This document shows, piece by piece, positions 3,674 to 34,698 of a stretch of 64,000 nt of DNA. A program made the translations under genes and the position numbers. The stretch comes from Nostocales cyanobacterium Centralia_MAG_434 (GTDB lineage: Bacteria > Cyanobacteriota > Cyanobacteriia > Cyanobacteriales > Nostocaceae), in the NCBI GenBank assembly GCA_021324415.1, contig JAJPJF010000177.1, positions 1 through 64,000 on the forward strand. Reading direction: 5' to 3'. Within the stretch, counting starts at the first letter, position 1. Every line of letters starts with the position of its first letter. The notes under the pieces are model-generated. The model was not told where the DNA came from, searched no databases, and saw only the letters and a list, made by a program, of their open reading frames with translations.

Positions 3674-3730
3674 CCTCCCTTGTCCCCCTTGTCCCCCTTG
3701 TCCCCCTTGTCCCCCTTGTCCCCCTTGTCC
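3674..3730. repeat. Short tandem repeat, CCCTTGTCC type
   Basis: About six copies of a 9-nt unit (CCCCTTGTC) lie between the convergent comEC and protease genes. The same unit, or its complement GGGGGACAAG, recurs at several other places in the window. Open frames across it translate as RGT or LVP repeats and are not considered genes. Confidence 0.9.
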
Positions 3731-26078: not shown

Positions 26079-26127
26079 CTCAAATCTCTAATGCTGTGGC
26101 TGGAATAAGCGTAACCCAAAACAGTCC

Positions 26128-26192
26128 CCCATATCCCCCTTGTCCTCCTTGTCTCCCTTGTCCCCCACGTCCCCCTCGTCCCCCACATCCCC
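26128..26192. repeat. CCCTTGTCC-type repeat tract
   Basis: A degenerate array of CCCCCTTGTCC, CCCCCACGTCC and CCCCCTCGTCC units lies between the divergent SRPBCC and cysH genes. It is a diverged member of the array family seen near comEC and inside recJ. Confidence 0.85.
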
Positions 26193-26211
26193 CTCCACCC
26201 TAGGTGGTAAT

Positions 26212-31708: not shown

Positions 31709-33889
31709 GTGCTGGACCAACCGATACCTCAATCTTCCCGTCGCATTCAGCGCTTGCCTAATCAGAGGTGGCAGATTTATCCACAGAGAACAGAATTAGC
31801 TCAAAAGTTGGCACAACTGATGAATTTGACGCCTGTAGTTAGTCAGCTAGTGATAAATCGAGGAATTCATACGTTGGAAGAAGCACAAGTTTTCCTCTAT
31901 CCAGAGTCTTTAAAGTTACCTTCACCAATAGAGGAATTTCCTGATCTAGCAATCAGTTTAGAGTTATTACAAAATGCTATTGTCTCCCAAGAAGAAATCG
32001 TTATATGTGGGGACTATGATGCTGACGGTATGACAAGCACTGCTTTGCTATTGCGTAGTCTTCGTTGGTTGGGTGCTAAAGTAGACTACGCTATACCTAG
32101 TCGCATGCACGAAGGCTATGGGATCAACAAACGTATTGTTGAAGAATACCATAGCAAAGGTGTAGGGTTGATTCTCACTGTGGACAATGGCATCTCAGCA
32201 TTTGAACCAATTGCAAGAGCGAGAGAATTGGGTTTAAAAGTTATTGTGACTGACCACCACGATATACCTCAGCTATTACCTCCTGCTCATGCCATTCTCA
32301 ACCCTAAACTAATTGCAGAGTCTTCTATTTATCGAGGTGTGGCTGGTGTCGGCGTCGCATATATTGTAGCTGTATCCCTTGCAGAAAAAATGGGACAGAC
32401 TCAACACATCTTAAACTCGATGCTGGAGCTATTTACACTGGGAACCATAGCAGATTTAGCTCCTTTGACTGGCGTAAATCGTCATTGGGTCAAACGTGGT
32501 TTACAGCAGTTACCTAAATCTAAATTACCGGGGGTGCAAGCGTTAATTCAGGTGTCAGGGGTGAAGGGACAAGGGGGACAGGGAGGACAAGGAGGACAGG
32601 GGGGACAGGGGGGACAAGGGGGGGAGAAGTTAATTGGTACATCTGTGCTGTCTTCAGTGGGTTCGTCGTTTTCCTCTCCACTTCCTCATTCTCTTAGTTC
32701 CCAACGCTCATCCTCTAAATCCCTCAAACCTGAGGATATTGGATTTCGTCTTGGTCCGCGAATTAATGCTATTGGTCGGATTGCTGATCCTCAGATTGTT
32801 ATAGAATTGCTAACCACAGATGATGTGGGAATAGCGCTGGAAAGGGCGATGCAGTGTGAAGCAATTAACCAACAGCGTCAGCAAATGTGTACGCAAATTG
32901 AACAAGAAGCGATCGCAATTGTAGAGGCTTTGTATGTGACGTCTTTACAGCAAGATCGTGTTCTGGTTATTGTGGAACAAAACTGGCACCATGGTGTGAT
33001 TGGGATTGTTGCCTCTCGCTTAGTAGAACGCTACGGTGTTCCTGTGTTTATTGGAACTTATGAAAGTGAAACACATATTCGCGGTTCAGCGCGAGGAATT
33101 CCAGAGTTTCATGTGTTTGAAGCTTTAGAGTATTGTCGTAATTTACTAGGCAAATTCGGCGGACATAAAGCAGCAGGGGGATTTTCTCTGGAAACAGGAA
33201 ATTTAGGAGCGTTGCGATCTCGTCTAAGTGAGTTTGCTAATAAGTCTCTTGAACTCCAACATCTCAAACCACTTCTAAAAATTGATACTCAGGTCAATTT
33301 AAACCAAATTAATAGCCAGCTCTATCAACAACTTAATATCATAGAACCTTGTGGTATTGACAATCCTGATCCTGTGTTCTGGACACCCAATGTCCAAGTT
33401 CTTCAACAGGAAATTGTCGGTAAAGTTCACCTCAAACTCACGCTGGCGCAGACTATAGATAATCAGCGTCACCAAATTAAGGCGATCGCATGGCGCTGGC
33501 GTGACTACTTTCCCCTACCGTCTCGAGTCGATATTGCCTACAAGCTGCGAGAAAATAATTTTAACAATAACACCACCATCGAGTTGGAGTTACTGGGTAC
33601 ACGAGTTCCAACTCAGTCTTACCTGTTTAGTACGCCACAAGTAACTCCATTAAGAACCACTTTTGAGTACAACCAGCGAAAATACACCTGTGGTATATAT
33701 CAAAATGGTTCTTCACAAGAGTTGAGAATTAGAAATCCTGAAGGTAAAGTCTTAGCCGTTCAATCAGAAAACACCATCGGCTTACTGGGAACGAGTCGTG
33801 AGGAAGCAGTAGAAATTGATGTGTCAAAAGTACAATATGCCAATATCATTCAGGCAGCCCTGCAAGCGCTCGAAAAAGTTAGGAGTTAG
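31709..33889 (+). CDS. recJ: Single-strand-specific exonuclease RecJ with repeat insert
   Basis: A 726-residue 5'-3' ssDNA exonuclease for recombination and mismatch repair. DHH motifs are present: GDYDADGMTSTALLL (about 102-116) and VTDHHDIPQL; then GPRINAIGRI, HGVIGIVASRL, RGSARGIPEFHVFEAL and GGHKAAGGFSL of the DHHA1 part. Between the DHH half and GPRINAIGRI lies an insert of about 55 residues (about 284-338) starting with a (GQG)n tract and continuing Ser-rich; it is encoded by the GGACAAGG repeat found in intergenic DNA. The GTG start at 31709 lacks a clear ribosome binding site. The last codons and stop lie in a GTTAGGAGTTAG repeat. No frame is broken. Confidence 0.92.
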   Translation: MLDQPIPQSSRRIQRLPNQRWQIYPQRTELAQKLAQLMNLTPVVSQLVINRGIHTLEEAQVFLYPESLKLPSPIEEFPDLAISLELLQNAIVSQEEIVICGDYDADGMTSTALLLRSLRWLGAKVDYAIPSRMHEGYGINKRIVEEYHSKGVGLILTVDNGISAFEPIARARELGLKVIVTDHHDIPQLLPPAHAILNPKLIAESSIYRGVAGVGVAYIVAVSLAEKMGQTQHILNSMLELFTLGTIADLAPLTGVNRHWVKRGLQQLPKSKLPGVQALIQVSGVKGQGGQGGQGGQGGQGGQGGEKLIGTSVLSSVGSSFSSPLPHSLSSQRSSSKSLKPEDIGFRLGPRINAIGRIADPQIVIELLTTDDVGIALERAMQCEAINQQRQQMCTQIEQEAIAIVEALYVTSLQQDRVLVIVEQNWHHGVIGIVASRLVERYGVPVFIGTYESETHIRGSARGIPEFHVFEALEYCRNLLGKFGGHKAAGGFSLETGNLGALRSRLSEFANKSLELQHLKPLLKIDTQVNLNQINSQLYQQLNIIEPCGIDNPDPVFWTPNVQVLQQEIVGKVHLKLTLAQTIDNQRHQIKAIAWRWRDYFPLPSRVDIAYKLRENNFNNNTTIELELLGTRVPTQSYLFSTPQVTPLRTTFEYNQRKYTCGIYQNGSSQELRIRNPEGKVLAVQSENTIGLLGTSREEAVEIDVSKVQYANIIQAALQALEKVRS
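32562..32625 (+). repeat. GGACAAGG-type repeat inside recJ
   Basis: About seven 9-nt units (GGGACAAGG, GGAGGACAAG and similar) run in the recJ reading frame and encode Gly-Gln-Gly. They are near identical to the intergenic arrays at 6.6, 34.6 and 35.7 kb on the same strand. Confidence 0.9.
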
Positions 33890-33997
33890 GAGTTAAGAAT
33901 GGGGAGTGTGGCATAGGGCATAGTATAAGATATTCCCCTTGTCCTCCTTGTCCCTCTGCTCTCCTTCTTCTATTCTCCACTCTTAACTCTTAACTCC
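33880..33997. repeat. GAGTTAGG repeats with inverted arms
   Basis: GTTAGGAGTTAGG units start within the last codons of recJ. GGAGTTAAGA at 33889-33898 pairs perfectly with TCTTAACTCC at 33988-33997, enclosing a stretch with CCTTGTCC units. The structure separates recJ from psb30, whose stop is at 34004. Confidence 0.75.
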
Positions 33998-34003
33998 TTA
34001 CTG

Positions 34004-34126
34004 TTATAGGTCGCCGTTGCGGAATGCCAGCACAAAAATTACCGCTGGACCAGCTAACATGATAAGTGCTACGGAGACTAGCTGAAAAATCACTTCCCAA
34101 TGAATATTACCTAAGGCTTCAAACAT
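34004..34126 (-). CDS. psb30: Photosystem II reaction-centre protein Psb30 (Ycf12)
   Basis: A 40-residue single-helix subunit at the edge of the photosystem II core in the thylakoid membrane. It reads [20 protein letters not shown] and continues [15 protein letters not shown], then RNGDL, the family's fixed C-terminal pattern. The membrane helix covers about residues 12-35. GGAGGAAAG lies just upstream of the ATG at 34126, a very good ribosome binding site. The gene is too short for ordinary ORF finding. It is convergent with recJ across a repeat structure. The call rests on length and near-complete motif match. Confidence 0.95.
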
Positions 34127-34629: not shown

Positions 34630-34698
34630 CTGAAGGAGACAAGAGGGACAAGGAGGACAAGGAGGACAAGGAGGACAAGGGGGACAAGGAAAGGGGGA
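34630..34698 (+). repeat. GGACAAGGA tandem array
   Basis: Six to seven units of GGACAAGGA or GGACAAGGG follow the Cys-cluster gene directly. The same unit, on the same strand, makes the Gly-Gln tract within recJ 2 kb upstream. Confidence 0.9.

Follow-up and report, generated by a model that had tools for sequence, protein, structure and literature searches.

In filamentous cyanobacteria, a linker of the RecJ protein is rebuilt, in frame, from the repeats that occupy the gaps between genes in each genome, the result being a species-specific and fast-changing stretch of protein. The case was found in the window, i.e., the whole stretch of 64,000 nucleotides that was analysed, which belongs to a 551-contig draft genome (G000) with an estimated contamination of 2.9%. 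The features of the window that bear on it are as follows:

31709..33889, + strand: recJ, 726 aa, GTG start, with DHH, DHHA1 and RecJ_OB domains
32564..32719, + strand: hypervariable linker, residues 286-337, missing from solved RecJs and predicted to be disordered
32567..32620, + strand: six 9-nt units GGACARGGN, read as (GQG)6, a copy of the genome-wide intergenic repeat
32599..32624, + strand: G tracts of 6, 6 and 7 at 32599, 32608 and 32618
32621..32719, + strand: pyrimidine-rich, Ser-rich second half of the linker
3678..3730, - strand: non-coding GGACAAGG array of perfect copies
26124..26194, - strand: non-coding array of the GGACAAGG family, degenerate
33937..33953, - strand: two GGACAAGG-family units downstream of recJ
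34646..34689, + strand: non-coding array of the GGACAAGG family

The linker and its repeat in the window

The predicted product of the open reading frame is identified as the RecJ single-strand exonuclease by its domains (Pfam DHH, DHHA1 and RecJ_OB), by a TIGR00644 equivalog score above the cut-off, and by its predicted fold, for which the top PDB matches are RecJ. An earlier note on this DNA had proposed that extra residues, first a (GQG)n run encoded by 9-nt units and then a Ser-rich stretch, interrupt the protein. The insert is real: around 52 residues are extra with respect to the solved chains from S. aureus (8y30) and D. radiodurans (5f54), in which the residues equivalent to 284-285 and 338-342 of the window RecJ are just 3-7 apart. 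The reading frame (31709-33889) stays open through the insert, and Tandem Repeats Finder called the 9-nt array at 32566-32622. In the AlphaFold model (49 sequences), the mean pLDDT is 82, and that of residues 288-337, which sit between helices 274-283 and 341-358, is below 50; the linker is, as modelled, a disordered surface loop. An intein was rejected on the basis that the insert is a 52-residue low-complexity sequence, with Pfam domains absent between residues 247 and 416.

The same note had equated the unit with that of the non-coding arrays at 6.6, 34.6 and 35.7 kb. This holds for the array at 34.6 kb (34646-34689), whereas those at 6.6 and 35.7 kb are only degenerate, and better copies are those at 3678-3730, 26124-26194, 33937-33953 and 34646-34689. 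In the window, 21 matches to GGACAAGGNGGACAAGG with at most two mismatches were counted, where shuffled sequences predict 0.05. The wider claim, that the DNA behind (GQG)n is a non-coding repeat dispersed in this genome and read in frame, was upheld by the 823 matches to the GGACAAGG-type pattern in G000 (452 forward and 371 reverse), compared with 10 for a reversed-pattern control (4 forward and 6 reverse). In a sample of 33 arrays, none lay deep inside long ORFs apart from those in recJ and in an aspartokinase gene. The GGACAAGG-type unit is, therefore, a genome-wide dispersed tandem repeat with hundreds of copies that are mostly intergenic or non-coding. Its exact copy number is uncertain since the assembly is a draft in which some contigs (C38:1, C51:1 and C56:8) start within GGACAAGG arrays; such starts mean that the arrays break the assembly, from which the longest may be absent. 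Directly 3' of recJ (33880-34007), an inverted pair, GTTAGGAGTTAAGAATGGGGAGTG ... CACTCTTAACTCTTAACTCC, surrounds two antisense GGACAAGG units, an arrangement that forms a composite hairpin-like repeat at the end of the gene.

The second half of the linker is of a different kind. It contains 26% purine, and a BLAST search against the genome found zero copies of it elsewhere, such that genomic copies are confined to the array part of the insert. It is perhaps a decayed C-rich repeat arm; being untraceable to any current repeat, it counts against an origin in captured repeats.

Linkers of other cyanobacterial RecJs

RecJ genes were found in 60 whole genomes and 80 database contigs, all the comparison genomes being outside the genus of the window's genome, and 104 sequences were usable for an analysis of the linker, which was measured between ALIQVxGV and LKPEDIGF. 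Over the approximately 100 RecJs, its length ranges from 6 to 122 aa (median 27 aa), and no other site of the protein varies as much in length (SD of 17.1 aa, with 5.8 for the next site). The shortest linkers, of 6-8 aa, belong to some relatives outside the Nostocales (L063, L075, L097, L107 and L109). In nearly all the Nostocales RecJs sampled, and also in Okeania, the linker is hypervariable and often filled with repeats, so the insert is not a one-off event. What the linker is built from differs with the lineage (units of 7, 8, 9 or 33 nt, or palindromes):

(GQG)n, from the 9-nt unit
GAGEQGSR, from an 8-nt unit
NPKSKIQ, from the 7-nt unit CCAAAAT
GDTETRG, with a SASPRL return arm
DAINK
KKEEGR, in Okeania
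DVPAEGLYPNT, an 11-aa unit in around 8 copies

The insert is lineage-specific, in that relatives carry other inserts at the same site, and no RecJ sampled from distant cyanobacteria had the same insert encoded by unrelated codons. The importance that had been attached to the 9-nt period has to be abandoned: units of 7, 8 and 33 nt and palindromes are captured at this site too, and an 8-nt array shifts by three units, i.e., 24 nt. What these linkers share is a composition in which G, S, K, N, Q, E and P are common and I, L, V, F and W are scarce. No conserved motif was seen within the linker among the RecJs compared, and part of the linkers have no recognisable repetition, which again counts against repeat capture.

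The content of the linker follows the repeat families that are abundant in each genome. In a search of 36 genomes for exact GGACAAGG pairs, G000 had 665 and G004 had 176, while none of the other 34 exceeded 43, and it is G000 and G004, the two genomes richest in these arrays, that have long (GQG)n linkers; G011 (7 copies) has a shorter one. These three are apart on a RecJ tree made without the linker, by a quick method that leaves some forks unsupported. In the single-contig genome G032, most of the length of the 126-bp linker recurs at around 39 other sites, mostly with 88-96% identity. More generally, for 92 linkers, the 12-mers of the linker were found in the flanking DNA at a frequency of 0.049, which is 14 times the 0.0035 of the remaining gene.

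Changes in the linker are fast. Among 22 pairs of RecJs with a core identity of at least 98%, which are not independent of one another, no two linkers of a pair are identical, and their lengths differ in 82% of the pairs. L021 and L057, with cores around 99% identical, have linkers of 122 and 38 aa, respectively, the difference being due to a 33-nt unit with 8 copies in the former and 1 in the latter; three 8-nt units (24 nt) of L032 and L035 are missing from L039; a Mastigocoleus pair differs by 6 nt and an Okeania pair by 27 nt. The RecJ alignment thus bears out the expectation that close relatives would differ by whole repeat units. Every RecJ ORF recovered is intact across the linker, and the fact that arrays of 7- and 8-nt units still keep the frame indicates selection for an open RecJ. 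The description of RecJ as essential is unproven, given the presence of a second RecJ gene. This paralogue has GRLLELCQKSGDRPTDISFGLGPRINAVSR, with few substitutions, at the site in question and, in each of the 20 genomes sampled, lacks an insert; it follows that repeats do not enter every RecJ.

Proposed capture of repeats and the alternatives

The explanation that we consider likely is that a tolerant, disordered linker in RecJ repeatedly gains and expands the intergenic repeats of its genome, with a filter for frame and for a hydrophilic reading without stops. It is favoured because the insertions are at a single site, recurrent, matched to the genome, variable by units, in frame and in a region predicted to be disordered. 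Dispersed copies might be the source, through ectopic recombination or gene conversion, or the repeats might be seeded locally, after which the arrays would lengthen and shorten by replication slippage. Selection would act mainly as a filter for an open frame and a hydrophilic peptide, since the loop joins two helices where added length is tolerated, and the sequence and length of the linker are probably near-neutral for RecJ activity.

The orientation of the repeats is consistent with such a filter, but only in part. All 52 occurrences of the four main motifs in RecJ linkers are in the sense orientation, a count that is not phylogenetically independent, and the reverse strand of the linkers would encode a hydrophobic peptide. 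Of the six frames of 76 linkers, only the reverse ones are hydrophobic; the true frame is the least hydrophobic in 27, the other two forward frames being similar to it. However, intergenic arrays are oriented too. In samples from G000 and G032, those located 3' of the nearest ORF have its orientation in 44 cases and the opposite one in 16, and those located 5' have it in 8 cases and the opposite one in 19. The G-rich strand of intergenic arrays is mostly sense 3' of ORFs and antisense 5' of them (L161-L180 and L271-L290 of G032, and the G000 samples), and GGGNATC-type repeats show the same layout around genes (PMC4692102). The sense-only orientation cannot, therefore, be credited wholly to the protein: an attribution to protein selection alone is weakened, and a bias at the DNA or RNA level may be partly responsible, which counts against the capture explanation as formulated above.

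Another possibility, which we regard as unlikely, is that selection maintains a long, disordered linker for a function, such as a tether to partners or to DNA, its length and composition being selected and its sequence free. Nearly all the Nostocales RecJs sampled do have at least around 13 linker residues, their composition is always hydrophilic and disorder-promoting, and the insert-free paralogue may divide the labour with them. Such a function is difficult to reconcile with an up to threefold difference in length between near-identical RecJs, with the 6-8 aa found in some relatives outside the Nostocales, and with the lack of a conserved motif among the linkers compared.

The insertion into recJ of a discrete, mobile palindromic element comparable to those of Rickettsia would account for the linkers of L047, L002 and L010, in which a G-rich left arm and a complementary C-rich right arm form strong hairpins, and for a palindromic segment that is present in L087 and L094 and missing in L089. 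We nevertheless doubt it. Folding beats that of shuffled sequences for some relatives only; in the window, the hairpin is no stronger than shuffles (z = 0.07), and the right, Ser-rich half of the insert has no genomic copies. Moreover, a second arm is missing from many linkers, which are tandem arrays, and the length of the element is not fixed.

It is very improbable, in our estimation, that RecJ is a reversible switch in which slippage of the G tracts, and of the non-triplet arrays of relatives, makes filaments into mosaics of cells with RecJ on, off or variant in length. If this were true, a repair nuclease would be phase-varied by repeats whose stability may itself depend on RecJ. The narrower form of this idea, a contingency locus where frequent slippage, both at the G6, G6 and G7 tracts and in the arrays, turns RecJ on or off in some cells, draws on the fact that the only runs of at least six Gs in recJ are these three, all inside the linker, and on the computed effect of a one-base slip at any of them, which would end the protein ahead of DHHA1, at residue 307 or 329. 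We give it scarcely any credence: the RecJ ORFs recovered are without exception intact, and long G tracts belong to the unit of this genome rather than to linkers in general. Finally, a repeat wrongly joined into recJ during assembly, which the fragmentation of the draft and the contigs starting in arrays might suggest, is hardly credible in the light of a frame kept across the insert and of comparable inserts in many independent assemblies, including the single contig of G032.

Around 100 RecJs, together with an insert-free paralogue in the same genomes, constitute a clean natural series for studying how non-coding repeats turn into protein and how freely a linker in a core enzyme may change. 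The linker might serve as a strain marker.

Known repeats and captures in other proteins

The existence of STRRs and other G-rich repeats of 6-9 nt in heterocystous cyanobacteria has long been known (Mazel 1990, as cited in PMC2670836). GGGGA(C/T)T repeats form quadruplexes (PMC4692102), and in Nostoc PCC 7120, 68% of repeats are intergenic and a minority intragenic (PMC2670836; PMC4692102). The repeat of the window resembles them in consisting of short, dispersed tandem units that are mainly intergenic and similarly oriented around genes. It differs in its 9-nt unit, GGACARGGN, where the strict definition of an STRR has a heptanucleotide, and in the recurrence of its capture at one homologous protein linker; it works, then, in the manner of an STRR but lies outside the strict definition. 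An STRR within rnpB of heterocyst-forming cyanobacteria (Vioque 1997, as cited in PMC2858038 and PMC4748335) is likewise a genome repeat housed in a conserved functional gene, although that gene encodes an RNA, while in recJ the repeat is an in-frame protein linker.

Rickettsia palindromic elements, according to the account in PMC10969869 (citing Ogata 2000, 2002), sit in frame in unrelated protein genes and are defined elements of around 150 bp with a conserved peptide. They too are repetitive DNA in frame and compatible with protein structure; the RecJ site, unlike them, hosts simple tandem repeats that differ between genomes and replace one another, and the insert of the window is not a palindrome of fixed length common to many genes. 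Short tandem repeats in disordered regions of proteins are composed of disorder-promoting residues and vary in unit number (PMC9581044), as in the RecJ linker, which is set apart by the unrelated families that occupy, lineage by lineage, one site in a bacterial housekeeping enzyme. In a partial coverage of the literature, no publication on RecJ linkers or on in-frame capture of repeats in cyanobacteria was found. The kind of phenomenon is thus already known, and what looks new is the recurrence with which repeats matched to the genome replace one another at the same homologous linker in a core enzyme.

In the assembly of the window, the aspartokinase gene (L154:3274-5220, equivalent to G000:C75:14873-16819), which has intergenic arrays on both sides, contains a G-rich and then Ser-rich insert, GETRGTGETRETGETG...SLSSLSSLSSSSSSPSS, in frame between ACT domains, and its linker also varies widely in relatives. 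Two aspartokinase genes, on C75 and C28, are present in G000 and are 73% identical, a case of either a paralogue or a contaminant; given the copy on C28, contig C75 might come from a contaminant. Annotators should be aware that linkers in proteins of the Nostocales, those of RecJ and aspartokinase among them, can be recent repeat DNA and are not to be taken for an evolved domain.

The extent of in-frame coding capture was estimated from genome samples. In 800 kb of G032, our sorting of 29 candidates left around 8 of 313 repeat regions as intergenic-type repeats read in frame; the remaining candidates were repeats of the ordinary protein kind (TPR and HEAT, for example). Among the hosts are a heavy-metal P-type ATPase, a UvrD-type helicase, an Omp85/Toc75 protein and histidine kinases. 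In the Omp85/Toc75-like protein of G032 (L177:13513-15723), an N-terminal (SSP)n derives from repeat DNA located beside a GAGEQGSR array.
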